From the IMG/VR virus record IMGVR_UViG_3300045999_006187, positions 1 through 28,696 of that record: a stretch of DNA of 28,696 bases; one strand, written 5' to 3'. Source of the stretch: a virus. Below, one piece after another: positions 2,743-22,109 of this stretch (its first letter is position 1; each line of letters starts with the position of its first letter). The translations under genes and the position numbers were made by a program. The notes beneath the pieces are model-generated. The model saw nothing but the letters and a program-made list of their open reading frames with translations. It was not told where the DNA came from and searched no databases.

Positions 2743-2919
2743 CTACTTAGCCTTCTGCCTACCGGCCTTCTGAAGGGCAATCGCTACGGCCTGCTTCGTA
2801 GCCGCCGCCTTATTCGCTGGCCTCGACGTACCAATCCGTCCGGACTTCTCGAAGTCCCCCACCAGCGTCCGAATGTTCTTGCTTACAGCCTTGTCAGACT
2901 TACCCTTGACTAGCGGCAT
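2743..2919 (-). CDS. DUF6496-like small basic protein
   Basis: 58 aa, ATG 2919 to TAG 2743, one base after the stop of the upstream gene. The sequence begins MPLVKGKSDKAVSKNIRTLV, followed by a GKIGTSRP-type motif (SGRIGTSRP) and ends with KQAVAIAL.KAG in a Lys-rich tail. This is the pattern I recall for DUF6496, a small protein widespread in phages and bacteria and of unknown function. The protein is highly basic and without membrane segments. The gene is placed between another small basic gene and the holin. Confidence 0.72.
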   Translation of the reverse strand: MPLVKGKSDKAVSKNIRTLVGDFEKSGRIGTSRPANKAAATKQAVAIALQKAGRQKAK

Positions 2920-2920
2920 C

Positions 2921-3190
2921 TCAACAGTTCCATGCCCGTAGGCTCTTGTTGATCCGGGAGTTCGGATCGTTGGCGGTCTTGGCCGAAGTCAGCTTCTTCT
3001 TGGCACCTTGCATACGGGCACAGAATGACTTGCGCCGGCCCGCATCCTCCTTGGTCCGGGGGTTCGGAGCGGGAGGCTTGAGGCCGGGCTTGCCGGGATT
3101 CGCTCGGTTGTAGGCAGCGCGCCCTTTAGCATTCAACCCACCTTTCGGGTCTTTGCCTTCGGCGCGCTGCCAAGCAGGGGACTTCGCCAT
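2921..3190 (-). CDS. Small basic phage protein, first gene of the left-end operon
   Basis: 89 aa from ATG 3190. It begins MAKSPAWQRAEGKDPKGGLN, continues with KGRAAYN..NPGK and ends RRKSFCARMQGAKKKL...SRINKSLRAWNC. I recall this conserved pattern (AWQR.EGK, KGGLN.KGR, RRKSFCARM, LRAW.C) from a domain of unknown function in aquatic phages, possibly DUF6321, but I am not sure of the number. A near-consensus promoter ends six bases before the ATG, so the transcript may start at the start codon itself. No catalytic motif is visible. Confidence 0.72.
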   Translation of the reverse strand: MAKSPAWQRAEGKDPKGGLNAKGRAAYNRANPGKPGLKPPAPNPRTKEDAGRRKSFCARMQGAKKKLTSAKTANDPNSRINKSLRAWNC

Positions 3191-3196
3191 GCCCCC

Positions 3197-3225
3197 ATTA
3201 TATCACGAATTGTACAGTCTTTCAA
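3197..3225 (-). promoter_or_regulatory. Strong sigma70-like promoter, possibly giving a leaderless mRNA
   Basis: Reading the minus strand, TTGAAA (3225-3220), a 17-bp spacer and TATAAT (3202-3197) form a near-consensus promoter. The spacer ends in TGA, giving an extended -10 TGn. Six bases follow before A3190 of the next ATG, so the expected start of transcription is the start codon. The -35 and spacer lie in the last codons and stop of the metallophosphoesterase gene. Confidence 0.8.
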
Positions 3226-3973
3226 TGGAGACAGACTCGACGTCGAAGGCACCCGGCCCAGTAAAGTGCAGTAGATGGACCCCATTCCACCACATCTTCT
3301 TGGACGCCTTGGCGTACCCGAAGTCCCCCTCGGGATCGACAAAGCAGCCACCTACCAGCGCATTGATCTTACTGCCATCGGCCTTAGTCCTAGTCGCCGT
3401 AGACAGCAGATGCGAATGTCCACATACACAGGAAGTATGCTGTGACTTCAACAAGTTATTGGCATGGTGCTCACCACCCTGCGGCCGACCCATCAGCCCA
3501 CTGACAAAGTAGTGCTGGAACACAGCCCCGTGCAAGATCAGCGGCTTCAGGAACGGCTGATACTTGACCGGGAATGTGGGCCTCCGCTGCTTCACCAGAG
3601 ACGCCACCGTCTTCGGGAAGCCCGAAGTCAGCAGCCTGTTGTCCGACTTCATCCACTTGTTGTAGCGGTCTTCGTGGTTGCCCTCTACAAAGTAGAAGTT
3701 CTTGGCGCCGGTCGCCTCGAAGATGGACTGCATCAAATCTAGGCCATCCAGCCCTGCCTGAATGTCATCTTCCAGCGACCGATGATACCACTCTGGATCA
3801 TCCATATCGTGCGTACACAGGGACCCGAAATCCCACAGGTCCCCGAGATGCACCACATCAGTCAGTTCGATCTTGCGCCAAACCAGCCAAGCCATCAACT
3901 GCTTGAGCCGATCCAGATCGTCGCCCGGCATCGCATGCGTATCCGGGACGACCAGCACAGTCTTGACGCTCAT
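3203..3973 (-). CDS. Calcineurin-like metallophosphoesterase
   Basis: 256 aa. All the metal-binding motifs of the family are present in order: PDTH with Asp11 and His13, HLGDLWD with Asp45, GNHED with Asn99 and His100, a HG pair in ILHGAVF near residue 148, and CGHSHL near residue 186. The family hydrolyses phosphomono- or diesters using two metal ions. Phage members include nucleases and nucleotide or RNA phosphatases, and the substrate cannot be read from sequence. The start overlaps the diphosphohydrolase-like gene by ATGA, so it belongs to the nucleotide-metabolism operon. A strong promoter for the left-end operon overlaps its 3' end. Confidence 0.88.
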   Translation of the reverse strand: MSVKTVLVVPDTHAMPGDDLDRLKQLMAWLVWRKIELTDVVHLGDLWDFGSLCTHDMDDPEWYHRSLEDDIQAGLDGLDLMQSIFEATGAKNFYFVEGNHEDRYNKWMKSDNRLLTSGFPKTVASLVKQRRPTFPVKYQPFLKPLILHGAVFQHYFVSGLMGRPQGGEHHANNLLKSQHTSCVCGHSHLLSTATRTKADGSKINALVGGCFVDPEGDFGYAKASKKMWWNGVHLLHFTGPGAFDVESVSIERLYNS

Positions 3974-6036: not shown

Positions 6037-6229
6037 AAAGGTTCCTTGCATTGTCAACTGATTGCACGATGTTGGTGCGGATCACATGAATGTTGGTGCC
6101 GTTGGAGGGGTCGATGCCCCGCTCCATCCAAACCTTCACCGAGTGTCCCCGCTTGCGCCACCAGTTCTTGATGTCGTTCATCAGCTTGTAGTTGGCAGCA
6201 CGGTCACTCAGGTAGTCATGCTTTGCCAT
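6020..6229 (-). CDS. Small basic protein, function unknown
   Basis: 69 aa from ATG 6229, with GGAGG four to five bases upstream. The start overlaps the end of the DNA polymerase gene by 14 nt. Sequence features include a basic helix (KLMNDIKNWWRKRGHSVKVW) and a strand-rich second half (NIHVIRTNIVQSVDN). Position right after the polymerase suggests co-translation with it. No family recognised. Confidence 0.6.
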   Translation of the reverse strand: MAKHDYLSDRAANYKLMNDIKNWWRKRGHSVKVWMERGIDPSNGTNIHVIRTNIVQSVDNARNLYVTDR

Positions 6230-7661
6230 TGGGCCTCCACTTCTTCAGGCCGCCGGGATTATCCGACCCGCCTTTGCCCCAGTTATAACCCACCTCCACA
6301 TCAAATGGAATAACTATTTCGCGAGTAATTCCCTTGATGTCCGTAACAGGGAAGGGGAAGTGCAGGCACTCCAACACTTGAGGCAACATCTCGGCGGCCT
6401 TCTCAATACGAACCTGGCCCAGCACCGCATCATGCAAGTTCAGCAGGATCTGCACATCAGCACCGGGCTTACCCTCGAACCGCTCCCATATCCGGTAGAT
6501 GCCCAAGTTCATCAGCACGCCGACGCAGTGCTGCGGAATGAAGGCAATGGCTTCCCGCAGCGTGGCATCATCCCACCTCCGGTTCCAGAAGTTGCGCCTG
6601 ATGCCGAAGGGCGTGGTCAGGTAGCCCATCGTCTGCAACTGCTTGGCCGTCCACACATGCCAGTCCGAGATGCCCGGAAAGCGGCGGAAGTATTGGTTCT
6701 GGAAAGCCTCGGCCACCGCAGTCTCGACCTTCATCTGCTGCGCTAGGGTGAAAGGCTTGCCGTAATAGTTGCTACCGTGAGCGCCTTTCTTTGTGATATC
6801 ACGATATGAATAGCCCCGGTAGTATTCGCGCTCGGCCAGTTCGCGGTCGGGCGGAAACCCAAATACCATTGACGCCACCATCGTATGGGAATCGCCACCT
6901 TCCACGGCCGCGATGTAGTTCTCGTCTCCTGAAAGATACGCGACAATACGCGCTTCGGCGCCTTGCTGATCTGAATAGAAAAGTAGATAGCCCGGATCTG
7001 CGACGAAGCAAGTGCGGGCTTCCTTCGGAATGTTCTGAAGGTTACTCCCGATACGGAGTGGATGCTCACTGGATGATAGTCGGAACGTCTCAGTCCCAGC
7101 AATGTTGAACGAAGCATGGAAGCGGTTGGATGCCGACAGCTTCTTTGATAGGAACTCGATCTGCTTCTCAATGTCGCGGATACGGAGGATGTGATTCGCG
7201 AAGAAGGCTCCGCGCGGATAGTCCCTCGCAATCCGTTCAAGGATTTCTCGGTCTGTGCCAACCTTGGTTTCTCCCTTCTTGGATTTGGTCTGCTCCGGAA
7301 TCGCCAACAACGTATAGAACATATAGATAAGCTGCGGCGTCGAGTTGTGATTAATGGTCGTGCCCCACAACGCTTCGCACACTTGGTCGAAGTTGGCCTG
7401 CACCTTGGCAGCCCGTGCCTCCAGCGCCTTGACCAGCATGTCGCGCCGCTTGGTGTCGATCTGCACACCGCGCCGCATCATGGTCATGATCGGACCCAGC
7501 ATCAGTTCGCTGTATTGGTGGGTAGCCTTCGCCCAATCCGGCAGCAGCCCGCCGTCGTAGACTTCCTTGAGGCCCATCGTCTGCATGGTGTCGAGGGCAT
7601 TATATATGATCTCCTGATTGTCAGGAGTCGGTGTCATGTCCGTGATTGTTCGCACCGGCAT
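6216..7661 (-). CDS. polA: Family A DNA polymerase, polymerase part of a split enzyme
   Basis: 481 aa (ATG 7661; ATG 7637 is an alternative). It has the full 5'-3' polymerase domain. Motif A is SDQQGAEARIVAYLSGD with Asp231, motif B is YRDITKKGAHGSNYYG, and motif C is NLHDAVLGQ with Asp411. Relative to E. coli Pol I, Arg287, Lys291, His295 and Tyr299 fall at the spacing of Arg754, Lys758, Phe762 and Tyr766, so the '762' residue is His. The Glu after the motif C Asp is replaced by Ala412. The N-terminus begins with YNALDTM (Tyr20, Asp24), which matches the Exo III motif of the proofreading domain. The rest of that domain is on the ORF at 7944-8885, and a separate gene sits between the two. Confidence 0.93.
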   Translation of the reverse strand: MPVRTITDMTPTPDNQEIIYNALDTMQTMGLKEVYDGGLLPDWAKATHQYSELMLGPIMTMMRRGVQIDTKRRDMLVKALEARAAKVQANFDQVCEALWGTTINHNSTPQLIYMFYTLLAIPEQTKSKKGETKVGTDREILERIARDYPRGAFFANHILRIRDIEKQIEFLSKKLSASNRFHASFNIAGTETFRLSSSEHPLRIGSNLQNIPKEARTCFVADPGYLLFYSDQQGAEARIVAYLSGDENYIAAVEGGDSHTMVASMVFGFPPDRELAEREYYRGYSYRDITKKGAHGSNYYGKPFTLAQQMKVETAVAEAFQNQYFRRFPGISDWHVWTAKQLQTMGYLTTPFGIRRNFWNRRWDDATLREAIAFIPQHCVGVLMNLGIYRIWERFEGKPGADVQILLNLHDAVLGQVRIEKAAEMLPQVLECLHFPFPVTDIKGITREIVIPFDVEVGYNWGKGGSDNPGGLKKWRPNGKA

Positions 7662-7947
7662 TCCCCTTCAGGAAGGTGTCCCGCATACGAGACAGGATAT
7701 GAAGCGTCAAGGGCGGCCCCTCGTAACTCTTCACGAAGTTCCGTACCCTTGACGGTTCAATGTCAGCAGCCAAACAAACCTCATCGAAGTTCTGCGCCGT
7801 AGTCCCATACTCAACCGTGAGCCACGCCCTAGCCCGCCTCTTATGCAGCGCGGCTATGGGTGTCTTCGGTTCGACGGTTGCATCGACCAGCGCCTGGATA
7901 ATCACGCTGGCCCACAACCTTTTCAGCGCAGCTTCGTCTTCACTCAT
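7621..7947 (-). CDS. Small helical protein lying between the two DNA polymerase parts
   Basis: 108 aa from ATG 7947, which overlaps the exonuclease ORF stop as ATGA. Its 3' end overlaps the polymerase ORF. Sequence features: a first helix (LKRLWASVIIQALVDA), a basic segment with HKRRARAWL, and FDEVCLAADIEPSRVRNFVK. The RRARAWL...F..VC..A...P..VR pattern is one I recall in small prophage-associated proteins of proteobacteria, which suggests a helix-turn-helix-like fold. Function unknown. It has none of the motifs of an intein, HNH or LAGLIDADG endonuclease, so it does not look like the element that split the polymerase. Confidence 0.7.
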   Translation of the reverse strand: MSEDEAALKRLWASVIIQALVDATVEPKTPIAALHKRRARAWLTVEYGTTAQNFDEVCLAADIEPSRVRNFVKSYEGPPLTLHILSRMRDTFLKGNAGANNHGHDTDS

Positions 7948-8885
7948 AGTGCCCCAGCTTTGTTGAAGTCCTTCTTGGCCTGAGTTCGCAGGTGCTTCCA
8001 TGCGCGGGTCGGCAGATGGAGGGCCGCCAAGAAACCCAGCGACTTCTCCCACTCCGGTTGCCACGCATGGTGGCGAAGCATCGTATCGAACACATGACCA
8101 CGGGGACGAATGCCATACTTATCCAAGTATGTCAAGTCGTAGGTCGCATTATGGAAACCCCACGCCAAGTCGCGGCGCTGTGCCAAGAAGCGGAGCCACA
8201 GCCAGATGTCCAGTTCGTCTTGCTCCGACCACACCGAAGCGAAGTTCCTGTCCTCCAATTGCACATACAGGCAGCAGGACGACGAGGTTGCCAGCGAGAA
8301 CTCCGTGATCCGACACGCCTTGTTAGTCTCTACGTCGAAGACAATCTCGTCCCCAATATGCTGGGTCGAGAACGCATACAGATCGGCCACATTGTCGGGC
8401 AGGTAGATGGTGCGGGGCTTATCGACGAACCGCGTCTGGGCCTTCCGCATAGCGGACACCACGACGGGCCGCTCGTTCCACGCCAGCCTAGCATACAGCG
8501 TGGGCGCATAGGTCGGCACCACCTGCAACCCCTCGACATACGGGCTGTCAATGTGGGTGCCCCGATAGGTGTCGATCTTCGTTTCGCCGGTCAGGCAGAA
8601 CATGGCGTGCGGACCCAGCGTCAGCGCGATGTCGTAGCCCTTCAGTTCTTCGACCAGCTTGTCCCGCCCCGCCTTAGCTGCCGGCACCAGTTCGCCGCCA
8701 GGCTTGCCACCCACGAACAGGTCAGTCCACTTGGCAGCATACCGGCTGTGGGCAGGACGAATGATGTCAGGCTTGAAGCCGGCGAGGCGCATCAACTCTA
8801 GTGTGACCTGCCACTCCCACTCCGACATGACACCATTGGGGCCGGCGTCGATGGACGGCCAATCAATAACTAGTGCGGTCTTCAT
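7944..8885 (-). CDS. 3'-5' exonuclease part of a split DNA polymerase, with N-terminal uracil-DNA-glycosylase-like domain
   Basis: 313 aa. Residues about 175-290 are a DnaQ-like proofreading domain: Exo I is IVFDVETN (Asp184, Glu186) and Exo II is HNATYDLTYL (Asn246, Asp250), followed by the RGHVFDTML segment typical of PolA. The ORF stops before the Exo III motif, which is found at the start of the polymerase ORF. Residues about 25-135 resemble the uracil-DNA glycosylase-like module often fused to phage PolA (LGPHAMFCLTG, RGT, VVPTYAPT). The His normally found in the HP motif is Ala, so glycosylase activity is doubtful. Together with the polymerase ORF it should form a proofreading polymerase. 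Confidence 0.85.
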   Translation of the reverse strand: MKTALVIDWPSIDAGPNGVMSEWEWQVTLELMRLAGFKPDIIRPAHSRYAAKWTDLFVGGKPGGELVPAAKAGRDKLVEELKGYDIALTLGPHAMFCLTGETKIDTYRGTHIDSPYVEGLQVVPTYAPTLYARLAWNERPVVVSAMRKAQTRFVDKPRTIYLPDNVADLYAFSTQHIGDEIVFDVETNKACRITEFSLATSSSCCLYVQLEDRNFASVWSEQDELDIWLWLRFLAQRRDLAWGFHNATYDLTYLDKYGIRPRGHVFDTMLRHHAWQPEWEKSLGFLAALHLPTRAWKHLRTQAKKDFNKAGAL

Positions 8886-14207: not shown

Positions 14208-15032
14208 TTAGGCGACGCCGTTGTCGTCCATGCTGTCGCCAAGCCAGAACAGGTAGTCAGCTTCCTCCTGCGACAGTTCCATGTCGTCGGTGTCGTCGGT
14301 GTAGGTGGCCTTGCCCTTGAAGATATCGGCAGCGCCAGGCACCTCGAACATCACCTCGTAGCGGCAAGTGCGGAGCTTCTGATTGCCGTAGTCAGAGGGC
14401 ACCGACACCACATCGGCAGGGTTGATCTTGACCGCAACCATCCGGTCGCCCGCACCACCCATGAAGTTCTTGGCATACTCGTAGGCCGCAGCGTGGAAGC
14501 CGTAGCTGCACGTTGCATTGCGGTCATCGTCAACATCATGGCGCGGCATCGACAAGATCTGGCCAGGCGAGTTGTCGAAGCGACCGGAGTGCTTGTCCCG
14601 ATAGTCGGAACGCACCGTCTTGTATGCCATGAAGCAACCGTCCTCCGTGACGGGAAGGTCTGCGGCTTCGAGGAACAGGAACAGTTCCTTGCGGCTAGTC
14701 ATCGACGGGTTCGACATAAGGTTGTCGAGGAACTTGCAATAGTGTTCGACCGGCAGACCCTCACGGAAGAACAGCATCAACTTGTCGGCAAGGTAGCCGG
14801 TGATCTCGCCGCCCTTGTAAGTGACGCCATCGTCGGACACCGTGACGTTGCCGCCCGTCGCCTTCTCGACGAAGCCCTTGACAGACGCCTGTTCGAGCGC
14901 CCCCTCATAGTCGCCAGCCTTGAGGGCTTCGACCACGGAGGCGAAGTTGATATGCGAGGTGTCGATCACCACCGGATCGCGGCCCGGCGGGAACATCGAC
15001 AGGGAGTTGGACTTGAGAATGAACGGGATCAT
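14208..15032 (-). CDS. rIIB: rIIB-like protein
   Basis: 274 aa. The middle carries the block I recognise from T4 rIIB: GCFMAYKTVRSDYRDKHSG, FDNSPGQ, MPRHDVDDDRNATCSYGFH, and MVAVKINPADVVSVPSDYG followed by KLRTCRYEV. The N-terminus (MIPFILKSNSLSMF) and an acidic C-terminus surround it. T4 rIIA and rIIB act together at the membrane in lysis inhibition and in exclusion by lambda rex; their biochemical role is still unclear. The gene directly upstream is rIIA-like, preserving the T4 order. AAGGAG lies nine bases before the ATG. A hairpin follows the stop. Confidence 0.85.
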   Translation of the reverse strand: MIPFILKSNSLSMFPPGRDPVVIDTSHINFASVVEALKAGDYEGALEQASVKGFVEKATGGNVTVSDDGVTYKGGEITGYLADKLMLFFREGLPVEHYCKFLDNLMSNPSMTSRKELFLFLEAADLPVTEDGCFMAYKTVRSDYRDKHSGRFDNSPGQILSMPRHDVDDDRNATCSYGFHAAAYEYAKNFMGGAGDRMVAVKINPADVVSVPSDYGNQKLRTCRYEVMFEVPGAADIFKGKATYTDDTDDMELSQEEADYLFWLGDSMDDNGVA

Positions 15033-15050: not shown

Positions 15051-17225
15051 TTAGCGGTTGAGGTAGTCGGTCAGAGCAACACCGTCAATCGGCGCCCTGG
15101 TCCAGATATACTTGAGCAGCGGGTGCTGCGCCACAAAACCTTGCCACACTTTCTCGAACTCGTCAACAGGCGCGCACCCCTTGGCAATCTCGGCGGCCTG
15201 CTGCGCCGTCACAATCTCCATCGCAGCCTTTTGTGTATAGGTGTAATAGTTCGAAACCACGGGGCTGAGTGTAGTCAGGTTATTGAGGAGGGGCTTCATC
15301 AGGGCGTAGAGGGGAGCAAAGCCGGGCCACGGGCTACCCTTATCTGTCCTGCGAATACCGTCGATCAGAATAGACTGGCGTGCGCCACCAATCTCCAGTC
15401 GGAAGCTCGCCCATGTCACCTGCCCGGCAACCTTCTGGATTTCGGGCACCAGAATGTTGTCCTGCACTACCGTCTTGCCCATCACATACCAGCCGTGAGC
15501 AGCCAGCGCCTTCACCAGTTTGCTGTTGTCCTTCAGCTTGGTCTTCGAGATGCCAATGACCCGCAGCTTGGTCATCCACCCGTTAGTCAGCAGCCCGGCG
15601 CAATGGCTTGCCACCTCCCGGTAGTCGGAATGGATCTTGCCTTCCCACATGGGAATGTAGATGCCACCCCCTGCTAGGTCGAGCGTGCCCGTCTGCAACT
15701 CCCGGTCGAAGCGCGTCCCGCTGGGGGTCATCGTGTAGTATTGCGTCGAGTGGACGCGCCCGGTCTTGCATGCCGCCGCATTGGACGGGGCTTCCTCCAG
15801 ATCGGTGTCCGCATTGATCGGCTTGGGGATACCAAGCTGCTCACAGCGCACCACCAGTTCGGCGTAGGGCATACCGTGGAACAGGTGAATGTAGATGTCA
15901 GTAGATTGCCCGCCGGGATGAGCATGCTTGATCCTGTTATAGTTGTGCTCGAGGGTGCGGTAAGTCTTGCTCGTCACCTTCGCAACCCATGCAACTACAA
16001 GTGTGGAGGCTTGGAAGTAACTGTGCGTTACAGTATTGTCGAAGACTGCCCCGGTCCTGAAGTTAGTCCAGTAAGAACGCTTCTCGTAGTTGGTCATCTT
16101 GCCAAACGTCGAGAAGGTGGTCAGGTCCAGCGTCACCTGTCGGTGAACAGGTTGTCCCCTCCACCGGATCGTCGCATTGTTGATGGTCAGCTTGGCATAG
16201 ATGGACGACAGGCCCTTGTTGCCTGCCCCGTAAAGAAGCTCGCGCGCAGCGGCCAGCGTCGGCTGCTTGGCAACGAGTGCCTCTGTCTCCGCGACTAGAT
16301 GCTTGGCGAAGGCAGCGATGGCTGCGATCAGCGCCTTGCAAGTGGGCGGATCGTAGGACAGCGCCTCTCGCGAAGGCGAGATGTTCACCGCCCCAATGGG
16401 CAGCGCCAGATGGAAGCCAAGCGTGTCGACCACCCGCGTCAGCGTCTCGGGGAAGGCGGAGATGGCAGTCAGGTCCAGCCGATAGGGCACGCCGCCCATC
16501 ACCACCGTCTTGTCGAGGGTGTGATAAACGGACCACGCAGGCAACCCATCGACCAGCGTATCGGACGACAGCAGAATGTTGGCCGGGTCGCGTGTCCGCG
16601 AGGTGCCTTCCGGCAAAGCCACATTGAACCTCGGCGCGACGGGCCACCATTGGAACAGGCGGTGCGCCTCGGCCTGCCACACAGTAGGATAGCCCGACGC
16701 AGAGGTCACAGCGACGCGGACTTCGAGGCCGGTGTCGGAACCGCAGGGCGTACTGCCAGTCTCGCGCACCTGCGGGGTGCCGTTCTCCTTGTAGCAGACG
16801 AAGGTGGTCTTCGTGCCGCCGTGCCATGAGGTCACGGTGAACTGGTCGGCCACGGCGAAGGGGGACTTGGAGCCAAGCCCAAAGCCGCCGATCTGGGAGT
16901 TGTCCTTGTCCTTCGTCGAGCGGAAGTAGGTGGTGTAGAGCGACAGCACATCGTCGGTGGACAGGCCCGCCCCGTAGTCCCGGACAGCGAACCACATTTC
17001 CGAGTAGGTCGGAAGGTGGACCGCGATCTTACTGATCGGCAGACCCGCCGCACGATGGGCGTCAGCCGCATTGCAGGCGATCTCGCGGATCACCGCCAGC
17101 GTCTTGTTCTGGTAGAGGTTGGAAGACAGAACCTCGAAAGCCTTGGCGCTGGCGGCAATGGTGAACGCGCCACCGGCACCAAGCCCATTGGCCTGCACCA
17201 TCTCATGTTCTCGCGTCATACGCAT
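15051..17225 (-). CDS. rIIA: rIIA-like protein with GHKL ATPase domain
   Basis: 724 aa, close to T4 rIIA in length. Residues about 1-200 form a Hsp90/MutL-type ATP-binding domain: the N-box LAVIREIACNAADAH (Glu48, Asn52), the VRDYGAGLS motif (Asp83, Gly85, Gly87), and the glycine-rich lid GGFGLGSKSPFA (113-124). The rest is long and less conserved. Together with the rIIB-like gene it forms the rII pair known from T4-like phages and from some smaller phages. The role would be membrane-associated, in lysis timing or defence against exclusion. GAGG lies eight bases before ATG 17225. Confidence 0.88.
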   Translation of the reverse strand: MRMTREHEMVQANGLGAGGAFTIAASAKAFEVLSSNLYQNKTLAVIREIACNAADAHRAAGLPISKIAVHLPTYSEMWFAVRDYGAGLSTDDVLSLYTTYFRSTKDKDNSQIGGFGLGSKSPFAVADQFTVTSWHGGTKTTFVCYKENGTPQVRETGSTPCGSDTGLEVRVAVTSASGYPTVWQAEAHRLFQWWPVAPRFNVALPEGTSRTRDPANILLSSDTLVDGLPAWSVYHTLDKTVVMGGVPYRLDLTAISAFPETLTRVVDTLGFHLALPIGAVNISPSREALSYDPPTCKALIAAIAAFAKHLVAETEALVAKQPTLAAARELLYGAGNKGLSSIYAKLTINNATIRWRGQPVHRQVTLDLTTFSTFGKMTNYEKRSYWTNFRTGAVFDNTVTHSYFQASTLVVAWVAKVTSKTYRTLEHNYNRIKHAHPGGQSTDIYIHLFHGMPYAELVVRCEQLGIPKPINADTDLEEAPSNAAACKTGRVHSTQYYTMTPSGTRFDRELQTGTLDLAGGGIYIPMWEGKIHSDYREVASHCAGLLTNGWMTKLRVIGISKTKLKDNSKLVKALAAHGWYVMGKTVVQDNILVPEIQKVAGQVTWASFRLEIGGARQSILIDGIRRTDKGSPWPGFAPLYALMKPLLNNLTTLSPVVSNYYTYTQKAAMEIVTAQQAAEIAKGCAPVDEFEKVWQGFVAQHPLLKYIWTRAPIDGVALTDYLNR

Positions 17226-18041: not shown

Positions 18042-18070
18042 ATATTATGTAGTCTCCTGATAGTTTGCCA
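18042..18070 (-). promoter_or_regulatory. Possible promoter for the rIIA/rIIB transcript
   Basis: On the minus strand TGGCAA (18070-18065), a 17-bp spacer and TAATAT (18047-18042) make a moderate sigma70-like match. It sits between iteron region A and the gene at 17969, where a promoter is expected. Confidence 0.35.
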
Positions 18071-18106
18071 CCCGTCTGTGCTTCTACCTGCCGGCAACGG
18101 GGGCCT

Positions 18107-18346
18107 ACCTTTCTCACCGGATTCTCACCGCATTCTCACCGGCAAAAACCCAGCAATATCAAGGGCTTCACCCCCTTGGTGAGCGTGGAGAGCATGGTGA
18201 GCGACCCCTTTCCTATAAAGAAAGAGAAAGAAATATAGAACTTTCCCGACATCGACGCTCACTCCCTCACCATTCCACCCGCGCAACGCTAACCCCTTGA
18301 TATCATTAGACTTTATGCGGATCGGCGGTGAGAATCCCCCGGTGAG
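18107..18346. repeat. Iteron-like control region A (candidate origin or multi-operator)
   Basis: Eight exact CTCACC or GGTGAG hexamers lie in 234 bp. Three CTCACC copies at 18113, 18124 and 18135 are spaced exactly 11 bp. Next are an imperfect hairpin (CAAGGG...CCCTTG), GGTGAG at 18178 and 18196 with a degenerate copy midway, an A/G-rich, A/T-rich core near 18211-18240, CTCACC at 18266, and GGTGAG at 18327 and 18341. The order and spacing are repeated in region B at 21.65-21.92 kb. The stretch 17970-18312 has no gene; the last two copies lie in the 3' end of the gene at 18313-18588. Confidence 0.75.
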
Positions 18347-18588
18347 GAAGCCTCGTCCATCTCCATCGCCTCCCTCACCAGCCGATCCGCCTTCGCCTCC
18401 CACGCATTAGCCCTCGCCTCCAGCGCCCTTGCGGACCCTCCAGTCCTGCCCCCGCTGAGTTGCACCCCGCTTCGCAGGATGGCGACCTCATGCTTCGCAC
18501 GCATAGCTGCTATGCGTATCCGCTGTGCCCGCTCCAGTAGCACAGCCTTCGTGTGCGGCAGCTTCACCACCGGCCCCCGTCCATGCAT
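18313..18588 (-). CDS. Small basic helical protein
   Basis: 91 aa from ATG 18588, with GGAGG eight bases upstream. The sequence is Arg/Ala-rich and helical: TKAVLLERAQRIRIAAMRAKHEVAIL, ARALEARANAWEAKADRLVREAMEM. The Arg-rich helices would suit nucleic acid binding, but no motif is recognised. The 3' end runs into iteron region A and contains two GGTGAG-type copies as codons, so coding and control sequence overlap. Confidence 0.55.
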   Translation of the reverse strand: MHGRGPVVKLPHTKAVLLERAQRIRIAAMRAKHEVAILRSGVQLSGGRTGGSARALEARANAWEAKADRLVREAMEMDEASSPGDSHRRSA

Positions 18589-18639
18589 CGTCTCATCCTC
18601 CCCTTAGAGTTTGCCCCCTTGCGAGGCCATTGCGTCCGA

Positions 18640-18873
18640 TCAGGTCCGGGGCCGGGGCACAAGCCCCCCGCCGGACAGTCTCATGCGCGGCTCACCGATC
18701 TCCCGTTTGATCTGGGCGGCAAGCCTTTCCAGCGTATAGCGCCACTCCTCTATCATGTCAGCATCATCGCCCGCGTCGCCCCAATGGCGATCCATCAGCA
18801 TCGCGACCTGTTCCGCCGCCTCGAACGCCTCGCGCATGGCAAGGGTGGCGTCTTCTCGCTTGTGTTCAGACAT
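18640..18873 (-). CDS. Small acidic helical protein
   Basis: 77 aa from ATG 18873, preceded by AAGGA eight bases upstream. Helical sequence with TLAMREAFEAAEQVAMLMDRHW and DMIEEWRYTLERLAAQIKREIG. The last codons lie in a GC-rich hairpin (around 18636-18668) that may end or stabilise the mRNA. Function unknown. Confidence 0.55.
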   Translation of the reverse strand: MSEHKREDATLAMREAFEAAEQVAMLMDRHWGDAGDDADMIEEWRYTLERLAAQIKREIGEPRMRLSGGGLVPRPRT

Positions 18874-18911
18874 GATAGGGTTCCTTACGGTTGCGTTTCG
18901 TTCCGGATGCG

Positions 18912-19142
18912 TCAGCCTAGTTGGGCGCGCAGGCTTTCATAGCGTGCCGCATGGTATTGCTGCATTCGGAAGGCGCGCTGGTATTCGGACAGGTGGCGGG
19001 CCTCGGCTGCCTTGTCCCCGCGACGGCGGGCCGCCATGATATCCTGATCCGCATAGCGGCAGGCACGGCCCCACGCTTGCGCTCGCTTGAGCGCATTGGC
19101 GCAATCGCGTGTGGCTTGGATGGTAAGGGCATGGGAAAGCAT
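18912..19142 (-). CDS. Small basic helical protein
   Basis: 76 aa from ATG 19142, with GGGAG nine bases upstream. The sequence is helical with many Ala, Arg and Tyr: DCANALKRAQAWGRACRYAD, AEARHLSEYQRAFRMQQYHAARYESL. No family recognised. It belongs to the run of small genes between the two iteron regions. Confidence 0.5.
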   Translation of the reverse strand: MLSHALTIQATRDCANALKRAQAWGRACRYADQDIMAARRRGDKAAEARHLSEYQRAFRMQQYHAARYESLRAQLG

Positions 19143-19171
19143 GGACAACGGCTCCCGTTGCAAGGGTTGTG

Positions 19172-19480
19172 TCAGGCTACTGCGGCGCGGACTAGCTTGC
19201 CAAGCGTAGCGTCATCGACGCTGCTAGGTGCGCGCTTGATGAGTGTTACTACATCGCCATGGCGATAGGCAAGGTGCCATCGCGCGCGGGCGAAGCGTTG
19301 CGTGCGGGCCGTGAAGGTTTCCCCCGGCGTAACGTCGCAGAAGTGGGGCACGACCTTGCCAGAGGGAATCATTCTGGTGCCGACATATTGCGCCAGTGTT
19401 CCGTCTGGCCGCTTGAACCATTGGCCGATTTGGTAGGTGGCGGGCGATGCAGGAAGCGCGATGGCAGGGCGATACTTCAT
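19172..19480 (-). CDS. Small hypothetical protein, probably beta-rich
   Basis: 102 aa from ATG 19480, with AAAGGA nine bases upstream. The longer frame to 19939 has an implausible Arg/His-rich extension over a real gene. Sequence features: TYQIGQWFKRPDGTLAQYVGTRM, GKVVPHFCDVTPGETFTARTQRF, AYRHGDVVTLIKRAP. The small strands and turns (QWFKRPDGT, YRHGDVVTL) suggest a compact beta fold. Function unknown. Confidence 0.55.
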   Translation of the reverse strand: MKYRPAIALPASPATYQIGQWFKRPDGTLAQYVGTRMIPSGKVVPHFCDVTPGETFTARTQRFARARWHLAYRHGDVVTLIKRAPSSVDDATLGKLVRAAVA

Positions 19481-19509
19481 GGGATCGGTTCCTTTCCGGA
19501 TCGTTTCGG

Positions 19510-19719
19510 TTACTTGGCGATGGCGCGCAGGCTCTCGCGCACAAGCTTGGCCGTGGGGCCGCGCCACCGGGACATGTTGTTCAAGATGTAGATGGCTTGC
19601 ACGCGGGCGTCGTCGCCCGTCATGTGCATGCCAGCGTAGGCGTAGTGAACCGCATAGTTGAGCGCCTTTTCGTGGCGGTTGGCGACGATGGCGGCGCATG
19701 CTTCGTGCATGTTCATCAT
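19510..19719 (-). CDS. Small helical protein
   Basis: 69 aa from ATG 19719; ATG 19716 is also possible. AAAGGA lies about ten bases upstream, as for the next gene. Sequence: MHEACAAIVANRHEKALNYAVHYAYAG, then DDARVQAIYILNNMSRWRG and a basic C-terminal helix. No family recognised. The next gene follows after a 29-bp gap with a similar leader (GGAA..GAT). Confidence 0.5.
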   Translation of the reverse strand: MMNMHEACAAIVANRHEKALNYAVHYAYAGMHMTGDDARVQAIYILNNMSRWRGPTAKLVRESLRAIAK

Positions 19720-19783
19720 GACAGCGGATTCCTTTCCGTTGCGGGCATCTGCTGCCACCCCGTGTGAAGGTGGCATGAGAGGC

Positions 19784-19801
19784 CCGGCCCCGAGGGGCCG
19801 G
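19784..19801 (-). promoter_or_regulatory. Perfect GC hairpin between two leftward genes
   Basis: CCGGCCCC and GGGGCCGG form an 8-bp perfect stem with a two-base loop, nine bases after the stop of the upstream gene. No T run follows. It may act as an attenuator or 3'-end protector. Confidence 0.5.
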
Positions 19802-19809
19802 ATTAGGGG

Positions 19810-20586
19810 TTAGGATATGGTGGCGGAGCGCCGGACCACGACGCGGGCTTTCTTTGCGCCGGTTCCGTGGGCGGGGAAGATGACGGAAGCCTTGCGAACG
19901 GACGCCGCCTTGGAAGCGCAGAGGCCACAGGATTGGCACGTTACGACGCTACCCTTCAGGGTGGCGGGGCAAGTGATAGCCTTGTCTCCGTTGGAGAGGG
20001 TAAGGGTATGGCGCTCACCTTCGGCGAGATCGGCGACCATGGCAACGGGGAATTCAGGGTAGGCGGCGCGGATACGGCCCGCATGTTCGGGGCTATTGGC
20101 GGAGATGTTAACGGTCACGCCGTAGAACGCCATGCCACGAAGGGTGATCCGGTTATGGCGTGCAATGGCTTCGGATTCCTCGCCAGAGGCGGCGCGGACG
20201 TCTTCGGCGAGGATAGGGTAATGGCAGAAGATGATAGGGTCCGTGTGGCAAGCGGCGCGGGCGATGGCCCAGCACGCTTCGGAATTGAGGCGATCGCGCT
20301 CGCCGGGCAAGTCGCCGCCCGTGTTATGGCGCCAACGTTGCGAGGCGGGGAGGCGCGCGGCCCATACGAGGAAAGCGTCCCATGTGAGGACGTTTTTTTG
20401 GTTGCCGCGTCCGTCAGCACGGCCCCACGCAAGGCGGGTATGGTAGCCCGCGTCGGCATAGCAGCCGGAAGCCTGCAAAGGGCAAGCCGGGGGGCATGTG
20501 TGGGAGGACGAATAGGTGGCAGGGATCGGCCCCAGCTTGTCATTGGAGGAAACGGCAATGGCGAGGACGGATGGCAAGGCGGACAT
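19810..20586 (-). CDS. Cys-rich protein of the DUF7227 type
   Basis: 258 aa from ATG 20586 with AAGG eight bases upstream. Four cysteine pairs are visible: CPPACPLQASGCYAD near the N-terminus and CPATLKG...TCQSCGLCAS near the C-terminus. Between them are WRHNTGGDLPGERDRLN, CHYPILAED, GVTVNISANSPEHA and PVAMVADL. The end has FPAHGTGAKKA. I recall this pattern (GP.P.TY....TCP..CPL...GCYA, WRHN..GDLPG, CPA....TC..C.LC, AHG.GA.KA) in actinophage and other phage proteins called DUF7227. Cysteines suggest metal or Fe-S binding; function is unknown. A 7-bp hairpin encloses its start codon. Confidence 0.7.
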   Translation of the reverse strand: MSALPSVLAIAVSSNDKLGPIPATYSSSHTCPPACPLQASGCYADAGYHTRLAWGRADGRGNQKNVLTWDAFLVWAARLPASQRWRHNTGGDLPGERDRLNSEACWAIARAACHTDPIIFCHYPILAEDVRAASGEESEAIARHNRITLRGMAFYGVTVNISANSPEHAGRIRAAYPEFPVAMVADLAEGERHTLTLSNGDKAITCPATLKGSVVTCQSCGLCASKAASVRKASVIFPAHGTGAKKARVVVRRSATIS

Positions 20587-20601
20587 AAGGAAAGCCTTAT
20601 G
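20584..20601 (-). promoter_or_regulatory. Hairpin enclosing ribosome site and start codon of the Cys-rich gene
   Basis: On the minus strand CATAAGG, loop CTTT, then CCTTATG form a 7-bp perfect stem. The AAGG of the ribosome site is in one arm and the ATG start at 20586 is in the other, so both would be hidden when the hairpin forms. Confidence 0.5.
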
Positions 20602-20641
20602 CTAGGGGTTGCGGGCGAACACTAGGCTAGCGTTCGGGGAA

Positions 20642-20661
20642 CCGGGGAGCAAGCCCCCCGG
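20642..20661 (-). terminator. GC-rich hairpin after the first leftward gene
   Basis: CCGGGG (20642-20647) pairs with CCCCGG (20656-20661) over an 8-base loop. On the minus strand it reads GGGGGGCTTGCTCCCC, close to the hairpin at the 3' end of the 18640-18873 gene. A T tract is lacking, so termination is uncertain. Confidence 0.35.
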
Positions 20662-20672
20662 AAGCCGGAATG

Positions 20673-20849
20673 TTAGGCGCTAATGACGCAAGCAGACCAG
20701 TATTCTTCCGCTGCAGCCTTGGCGCGCCGCCAGTTATGGGAATAGGCGCTATTCTTGAAGATGACATGCGTTTGCTGCGCAATGTCCAGAACTGAATAGC
20801 CGGTTTGGCGACCCTTGGGGCCGTAGATGGTCATAATGACGTGGGACAT
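20673..20849 (-). CDS. Small protein, first gene of the leftward block
   Basis: 58 aa from ATG 20849, with AGAAGG about ten bases upstream. The sequence is MSHVIMTIYGPKGRQTGYSV, then DIAQQTHVIFKNSAYSHNWRRAKAAAEEYWSACVISA. The pattern looks like a small alpha/beta fold with a C-terminal basic helix. No family recognised. It is the first leftward gene beside the non-coding junction, where early phage genes against host functions often lie. Confidence 0.5.
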   Translation of the reverse strand: MSHVIMTIYGPKGRQTGYSVLDIAQQTHVIFKNSAYSHNWRRAKAAAEEYWSACVISA

Positions 20850-21262
20850 AGGGGCGGGGCCTTCTATGCTGGGGGCGGGGCGGGATGCCCTGCCGGTAAA
20901 AAGGCTTAAACCCCGGATTGCGGAATGTGTGCACCAGGTTGTTTGCATGGCTGGCATGCGGGGAGTGCATGGCGGGAGGGGCGTGCGTGCGCGCGAGCTA
21001 TAGTTGTGCGCGCGGGGGCGCGGGGGCGCGCGTAGGTGAGGGTGGCGGGGCTGTCAATGGGGGAAGGCTAGGTAACTGGGTGGTTACTTTGGGCGGGAAT
21101 GGGACAGTAGTGCTTACCTATCTACATCTTGTGCCTATGCGCCCCTTGAACCACTACATATAGACATAAGCCGCCCAGAAAAACATAACAGCTATGCATT
21201 GCCGGGGCTTGACAGGAACATATGCCTATCGGCGTCGGGGCGACCAGGCATTCCGTCCTACA

Positions 21263-21302
21263 GCTAGGAAGCTTTGCCTGGCGCTAGGAATGTTTGCCTA
21301 GC
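21263..21302. repeat. Two tandem 20-bp hairpin units
   Basis: Two directly adjacent 20-bp units share 17 of 20 bases. Each begins GCTAGGAA and has the complementary arm CCT(G/A)GC at its end, so each can fold as a 6-bp hairpin. TCCTA and TAGGA upstream form an additional inverted repeat. The function could be protein binding or RNA structure. Confidence 0.65.
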
Positions 21303-21645
21303 CAGCAGACGGGTCGCATACGGAACGATCTGTTTGCGGAAGGGGTAGGCCACAGGGGGGCTGGAAAATGTGCGCCGGTGGCTGTTGTAGTCAGAATGCC
21401 CCTACCAAATTCGCGCGTATTTTTGGAGTTGGCCCCATTTCTGCCACAATTCCCCTTGACAGGCCCCTCCTAACCATCTAACACCATAACTATACCCGGC
21501 GCCCAGCCCTTATAATCATTTCGGTTTCGCAACGACGGTATCCCTACAACAGATTTGCGTCTCGCCGGTTAGCGACAACCGAGTTTGTGGCTCATGAAAC
21601 GCCTTTCCGTTAACAACAACCGGGCGGCCCGGAAGGGCGCCGGGA

Positions 21646-21919
21646 GATTCTCACCAGATTCTCACCAGATCCTCACCTCAAAAAAGCTAATTAAATCAAG
21701 GGCGTAAGCCCGCCGGTGAGCGTGGTGAGAAAGGTGAGGGTCTACTTTTCTAATAAAGAAAGAAAGACAATATATAAAAGAAGTTGGAAAAGACGCTCAC
21801 TTTCCTCACCGCTCACCATTTCCTTTAATATCAATGACTTAGGGGTCGCCGGTAGGGTGAGGAAGCGGTGAGGATCTATTTGGAGCCCAACCCCTTTGCC
21901 CACTTCCTCACCACTCACC
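21646..21919. repeat. Iteron-like control region B (candidate origin or multi-operator)
   Basis: Twelve exact CTCACC/GGTGAG hexamers in 270 bp. CTCACC at 21650, 21661 and 21672 are 11 bp apart. GGTGAG at 21715, 21724 and 21733 are 9 bp apart. After an A/T-rich core (21750-21790) come CTCACC at 21805 and 21812, GGTGAG at 21856 and 21867, and CTCACC at 21907 and 21914. A GGGC-GTAA-GCCC hairpin lies at 21700-21711. The layout and much of the sequence (GGTGAGCGTGG, AATAAAGAAAGA, GACGCTCACT, GGTGAGGAAG) match region A in the same orientation. Confidence 0.8.
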
Positions 21920-22109
21920 AAGCTAATTAGGAAAATGGGCGCACCTCTGGCAAGGTAGACTTATATATAATATAGTCAAGAGGGAATTTCAAGTGTGGCA
22001 ATTTTGCAACACCCTCGATTCCCCTCCGGGTCCCCCGCGTAGCGGCCCCCTAATGAGTGCTTCCGAATACGTTAACGCGCTTATTGTATCCCCTAGCACC
22101 CATTAACCC

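Follow-up and report, generated by a model that had tools for sequence, protein, structure and literature searches.

Paired iteron arrays with IHF-like sites as candidate duplicated replication origins of an uncultured phage

We analysed a 28.7-kb fragment of an uncultured bacterial virus (IMG/VR record IMGVR_UViG_3300045999_006187; its full 28,696 nucleotides are hereafter called the window) and found that two arrays of the hexamer GGTGAG/CTCACC, array A at 18107-18379 and array B at 21644-21919, probably represent a duplicated replication origin of the iteron type, assisted by integration host factor (IHF) and organised as in phage P4 and the phage-inducible chromosomal islands (PICI). A preliminary description of this DNA had proposed either a duplicated origin or a pair of operator arrays. 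The origin is the better supported of the two because relatives keep the pair, each array combines IHF-like sites with a core prone to melting, and unrelated phages carry these words 3' of their primase-helicase genes; an operator role remains a rival and is weighed below. We treat origin activity, IHF binding and the identity of the initiator as predictions drawn from the anatomy, conservation, A+T content, IHF-site enrichment and primase-helicase context of the arrays, and confidence falls at each step from arrays to origin to helicase initiator.

Layout and conservation of the arrays

The hexamer occurs 37 times in the window against 16.6 expected, and its densest clusters are 8 copies within 240 bp in A and 12 within 270 bp in B. 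In 500 dinucleotide shuffles of the window, counted per 270-bp stretch, the number never exceeded 4. The positions, layout and far-above-chance clustering first described were all upheld. The common orientation of A and B was also borne out, as their best ungapped match is a 130-nt direct repeat with 71% identity (18111-18240 and 21648-21777) in which the longest identical run is 11 bp.

Array A lies between leftward genes and holds nine exact hexamers plus one CTCACT, and array B, located as originally reported where leftward and rightward genes diverge, holds twelve plus one CTCACT. Both begin with outer left iterons on the plus strand, three CTCACC at 11-bp steps (A: 18113/18124/18135, spanning 18113-18140; B: 21650/21661/21672, spanning 21650-21677), of which one to three copies are kept in relatives. 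A plus-strand IHF-like site with one mismatch to WATCAANNNNTTR follows in each array (TATCAAGGGCTTC at 18157-18169 in A, at the kept offset of -38/-39 from the last inner GGTGAG; AATCAAGGGCGTA at 21694-21706 in B). The inner left iterons are on the minus strand and comprise two GGTGAG in A (18178 and 18196, spanning 18178-18201) and three at 9-bp steps in B (21715/21724/21733, spanning 21715-21738); most relatives have three copies at 8-9 bp steps. They adjoin the A/T-rich core (AAAGAAAGAGAAAGAAATATA at 18202-18257 in A, a candidate DNA-unwinding element; AATAAAGAAAGAAAGACAATATATAAAAG at 21739-21795 in B). Beyond the core lie plus-strand inner right iterons (A: CTCACT at 18258 and CTCACC at 18266, spanning 18258-18271; B: CTCACT at 21796 and CTCACC at 21805 and 21812, spanning 21796-21817) and a second IHF-like site that matches the consensus exactly (TATCAAGGGGTTA at 18290-18302 on the minus strand in A; TATCAATGACTTA at 21829-21841 on the plus strand in B, the commonest form in relatives). 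The outer right hexamers, in both orientations, complete each array (A: GGTGAG at 18327 and 18341 (GGTGAGGAAG), with CTCACC at 18374 as the ninth, spanning 18327-18379; B: GGTGAG at 21856 and 21867 and CTCACC at 21907 and 21914, spanning 21856-21919), and the 3' end of a putative small leftward open reading frame (ORF; 18313-18588, minus strand) may lie within the right edge of A.

The IHF-like words and the CTCACT/AGTGAG variants were absent from the preliminary description, and two of the features that it did contain need qualification. The 11-bp step, from which binding to one face of the DNA had been argued, holds for the leftmost triplet; the inner and right sets step 7-9 bp, so the argument is not general. 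The hairpin placed between the first two sets can be located (18160-18176 and 21699-21711), but it is weak (z -1.2 and -0.5) and coincides with the better-conserved IHF-like word.

Both arrays are present in 11 of 11 related contigs that span the interval (eight recognised by a strict array detector and the other three by a looser one), 1.4-5.0 kb apart and with their orientation kept. A lack of hexamer clustering in related phages had been named beforehand as one outcome that would refute the idea; such clustering is present and the idea survives. In the ten group contigs examined in full the clusters are confined to this locus, with two in nine contigs and one in a truncated contig. We aligned 27 arrays end to end in a single orientation, which gave a consensus of one to three outer CTCACC, an IHF-like word, two or three inner (A/G)GTGAG at 8-9 bp steps, the A/T-rich core, two or three inner CTCAC(C/T), a second IHF-like word and outer hexamers. 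The inner GGTGAG and CTCACY sets are 60-74 bp apart, and the core is 73-81% A+T across 25 arrays, compared with a contig average of 42%. The triple CTCACC at 11-bp steps by itself occurs in 41 contigs, most of which lack the full layout.

The genes between the arrays differ among relatives, and the arrays, rather than the intervening genes, are the conserved part. Variable gene content is what would be seen if the arrays were the ends of a mobile cassette carrying the small-gene cluster, or sites for its deletion, and deletion by recombination between the two copies had been suggested at the outset. We find this hardly plausible, as the copies are direct and diverged, with too little uninterrupted identity to sustain the suggestion, an empty-site genome is represented by none of the 11 spanning contigs, and no integrase or transposase was noticed in the interval. 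The inter-array segment looks like a slot for variable cargo, with a fixed array on either side. In the window this slot includes a gene for a DUF7227 protein (19810-20586, minus strand), in whose place relatives carry other unknown families.

The sequence WATCAANNNNTTR is the recognition consensus of IHF. Exact matches to it number 25 in 6.0 kb of arrays versus 4 in the other 239 kb, counts that are not phylogenetically independent events since the arrays are related. The IHF-like word TATCAANNNNTTA lies mostly at -38/-39 and at +83 to +103 from the last inner GGTGAG, and we regard this predicted site as the strongest new element of the arrays. In many A arrays the right-hand site is reversed with its place unchanged; a kept position with a flipped orientation suggests that the bend, and not inherited sequence, is what matters.

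Repeated protein-binding boxes combined with IHF sites are also a feature of lambda cosB and P1 parS, and the resemblance raises a packaging (cos/pac) or partition (parS-like) function for the arrays. Such a function is very improbable, given that terS and terL are 10-13 kb from the arrays in the complete relative G001, that the set of proteins scanned yielded no ParA/ParB-like gene, and that a packaging site would not ordinarily be present in two full copies per genome.

A and B arrays differ systematically, in that B has more iterons and the right-hand IHF-like site is inverted in many A arrays. This would fit a sub-case of the origin reading in which only one array serves as the origin and its partner is a cis element with a different role, as with P4 ori and crr, or a copy-control element that titrates the initiator. 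P4 provides a precedent: its two iteron regions, one annotated as crr and the other as the origin, are separated by about 4.7 kb. Nearly all relatives nevertheless have every element, the A/T-rich core among them, in both arrays, and we judge this division of labour a reasonable minority possibility. The likelihoods that we attach to the alternatives overlap where these are sub-cases of an origin.

Iteron words in other phages and a candidate initiator

We searched IMG/VR with the inner triplet alone, and the contigs that follow, unrelated to the window group, are among the matches listed; an A/T-rich core usually accompanies the words in them. In three contigs encoding a Prim-Pol and/or VapE-like helicase (L119, L205, L206) the array overlaps or abuts the stop codon, and in two more (L199, L115) GGTGAG/CTCACC words lie at the 3' end of genes for primase-like proteins. 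A primase/helicase gene of about 730 aa stops 117 bp before the array in L099, L117, L136 and L138. Another contig (L150) combines an A/T core with an IHF-like word that matches exactly, and inverted sets around A/T-rich DNA are present in L116, L140 and L184, with no rep gene identified nearby. Two GC-rich cases (L170, L151) were rejected because their arrangement differs, and L171, an exact tandem run of 9-bp repeats adjoining an RNA-binding-protein gene (phrog_850), was set aside.

Among VapE relatives (L281-L286) the 3' iteron word varies (GGTGAG, GGTAAG, GTGAAGG) while the layout and A/T core persist, as expected from initiator specificity. Two cultured relatives with VapE-type primases use other words. 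As judged by eye, Marinobacter phage PS3 (L370, ~2880-3170) has GGGGTGACC repeats on either side of an A/T-rich stretch soon after its primase gene, and in Pseudomonas phage vB_Pae_U5 (L371, ~3030-3330) repeats including GTGGGACAG flank an A/T-rich stretch in the same position. We predict that both regions are origins.

Searches with primase-helicases found none of the known families in the window group, and this absence led us to a 489-aa helicase. A P-loop helicase of 489-499 aa, with the Walker A motif GEQGSGKST, is present in all relatives checked whose sequence extends far enough; its gene lies just upstream of terS, and the copies are 83-86% identical to that of G001. It resembles gp37 of Microbacterium phage Zeta1847, which is annotated as a DNA helicase or primase (tblastn E 5e-16; profile comparison E 4e-18 over 348 columns). 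When folded alone, its last ~80 residues form a helix-strand-helix-helix-strand-strand arrangement (pLDDT ~80-92 in the core), a topology that in this model appears winged-helix-like, and a Foldseek search with this domain returned weak matches that include winged-helix proteins. The full-length AlphaFold2 (AF2) model is poor (pLDDT 49) and was relied on for the C-terminal domain only; its weak Foldseek matches include the C-terminal region of the NrS-1 primase, AsfvPrimPol and pox D5. We consider the helicase a reasonable candidate for origin binding, and we put the chance that it binds the arrays as initiator at about even.

The preliminary description had proposed small proteins of the inter-array cluster as candidate binders. 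A binder encoded there is not required, as the content of the cluster varies while the arrays stay, and the remote helicase is the better candidate. We also considered conserved small proteins of 113, 156 and 68 aa as initiators and rejected them; they fall into no families, and the 156-aa protein looks SSB-like.

If the arrays are origins, the phage initiator helicase would bind the GGTGAG/CTCACC iterons, and host IHF would bend the DNA at both flanking sites, so that the outer iterons meet the oppositely oriented inner ones. The strain from this folding would open the A/T-rich core, where the helicase would load, to be followed by the phage DNA polymerase, SSB and a host or phage primase. 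More tentatively, A and B may constitute a split origin in which both are needed jointly, each folded by IHF and bridged by the initiator across the variable segment. Such an arrangement would be P4 ori/crr-like and would have arisen in a lytic ~60-kb lineage, with GGTGAG-type iterons as recurrent origin words for unrelated primase-helicase families.

Evidence against an origin and the transcriptional setting

Besides the relatedness of the arrays behind the IHF counts, several observations weigh against an origin or against the helicase as its initiator. The core is mildly A/T-rich or not A/T-rich at all in the L099-type and L115 arrays. GC skew, proposed earlier as a check, has its window minimum at 18.8 kb, but relatives disagree and the arrays are marked inconsistently, so we did not use it as an origin marker. 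The candidate helicase gene is ~10 kb from the arrays in complete relatives rather than adjoining them, and the window fragment ends before it. The only match of the helicase to P4 alpha is around Walker A (hhalign E 0.005, probability 7%), we detected no homology to VapE helicases, its similarity to the L199 protein is weak, and no Foldseek match reached E <= 0.001. Finally, outward promoter-like elements adjoin A on its leftward side and B on its rightward side, as an operator role would predict.

By the operator account, the rival to be taken most seriously, A and B would be operator or enhancer arrays at which a phage regulator, with bending by IHF, switches the leftward rII/replication block and the rightward thyX/ribonucleotide reductase (RNR) block. 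The element by A (GTGGCA-N16-CATAAT; 18044-18071, minus strand) is inside a block conserved in relatives, GGTGGCA..GAGACTACATA, and the element by B (CTGGCA-N18-TATAGT; 21947-21976, plus strand) belongs to a GGCA..GGTAGACT block that relatives also keep. Relatives (L044-L067) share the block GGCA..G(T/A)GACTACATA to the left of A and the right of B, which is possibly a phage promoter type or a regulator site, and in several of them a CTTGACA-N17-CTATAT promoter then follows to the right of B. There is one array per divergent block, and IHF-assisted enhancers are common. Overall counts give no argument in either direction, as a sigma-70 promoter scan found 3 matches against 2.3 expected and terminators number 2 against 5.3.

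It is the flanking outward elements that keep the operator account in consideration, and we nonetheless think it unlikely. The arrays share one orientation while the adjoining promoter-like elements and transcription units diverge, an operator does not need an A/T-rich core between inverted iteron sets, and in unrelated phages the GGTGAG/CTCACC words lie 3' of primase-helicase genes. In addition, the near-complete relative G011 holds both arrays though rIIB-like sequence was not found there, which argues that the arrays are not rII operators. A dual role in origin function and transcription control is possible.

To the left of the arrays the window encodes rIIA/rIIB, a PDDEXK exonuclease, an AAA/Sak4-like ATPase, an SSB-like protein, DNA polymerase in two ORFs and dUTPase, and to the right thyX, a class II RNR and a tail-fibre-assembly-like gene. 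The DNA polymerase ORFs are adjacent (6216-7661 and 7944-8885, minus strand), correspond to the N-terminal and polymerase parts, and are split alike in the complete relatives examined. The rIIA and rIIB homologues lie at 15051-17225 and 14208-15032 (minus strand), and the group has its own terminase/portal lineage, with Pelagibacter phage HTVC023P as the closest terminase at only 37%. All relatives in the group are uncultured. The best complete relative, G001 (63.1 kb), has a 123-bp terminal repeat, and G010 (62.7 kb) and G011 (60.3 kb) carry the gene set of G001 in permuted order, from which we take the full genome to be ~60-63 kb and all three to be effectively complete. Among the other products of G001 (L070/L072) are a tail-region protein that bears a methyltransferase and an 1809-aa protein of unknown function. 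Rfam and tRNA searches gave no matches, and a host search in the genome contigs gave none.

Comparison with known origins

In the open-access papers searched we found no description of this iteron word or of the array pair. Iteron plasmids such as pSC101, R6K and RK2 combine iterons with an A/T-rich region, use IHF as a bending factor in several cases, and have iterons of 17-22 bp in one orientation that are bound by a Rep initiator protein; the arrays described here are instead hexamers in inverted sets. The predicted origins of VapE/Prim-Pol phages (L119, L206, PS3) are closer, with GGTGAG/CTCACC or another word flanking an A/T core, which in some of these phages contains the TATCA(A/G)TGACTTA word of the arrays. 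They differ in having a single array that adjoins the primase-helicase gene, and in the family of the initiator.

In PICI and Staphylococcus aureus pathogenicity island (SaPI) origins, short iterons form two sets with an A/T-rich presumed melting site between them (PMC6092414), and the present arrays likewise have two short-iteron sets flanking an A/T-rich region. The PICI ori, however, is immediately 3' of rep, whereas in the present phage the putative origin is duplicated and the candidate helicase gene lies far from it. P4 ori and crr share with A and B repeats with a GGTGA core (TGTTCACC/GGTGAACA in P4) at ~9-11 bp steps, in both orientations and around A/T-rich DNA, as well as the presence of two distinct repeat regions in each genome. 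P4 alpha recognises its repeats through a winged-helix domain (PMC4234260). The differences from P4 are an iteron word of GGTGAG rather than the GGTGAACA type 1 repeats, two complete arrays rather than an ori plus two 120-bp crr repeats, matches to the IHF consensus in each array where an equal scan found none in P4 ori/crr, a candidate initiator gene that is remote rather than adjoining, and a lytic-type ~60-kb phage rather than a satellite.

Most origins of lytic phages are unmapped, and a compact grammar of short iterons, A/T core and inverted iterons, usually 3' of a primase-helicase gene, may allow origins and likely initiators to be predicted across unrelated phages. The covariation of the iteron word among VapE relatives would supply natural specificity variants and a way to learn how these helicases recognise DNA. 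We conclude that an organisation described as confined to PICI probably extends to other phages, and that what is new in the phage group studied here is that the layout is duplicated, equipped with IHF-like sites and detached from the gene of its candidate initiator.

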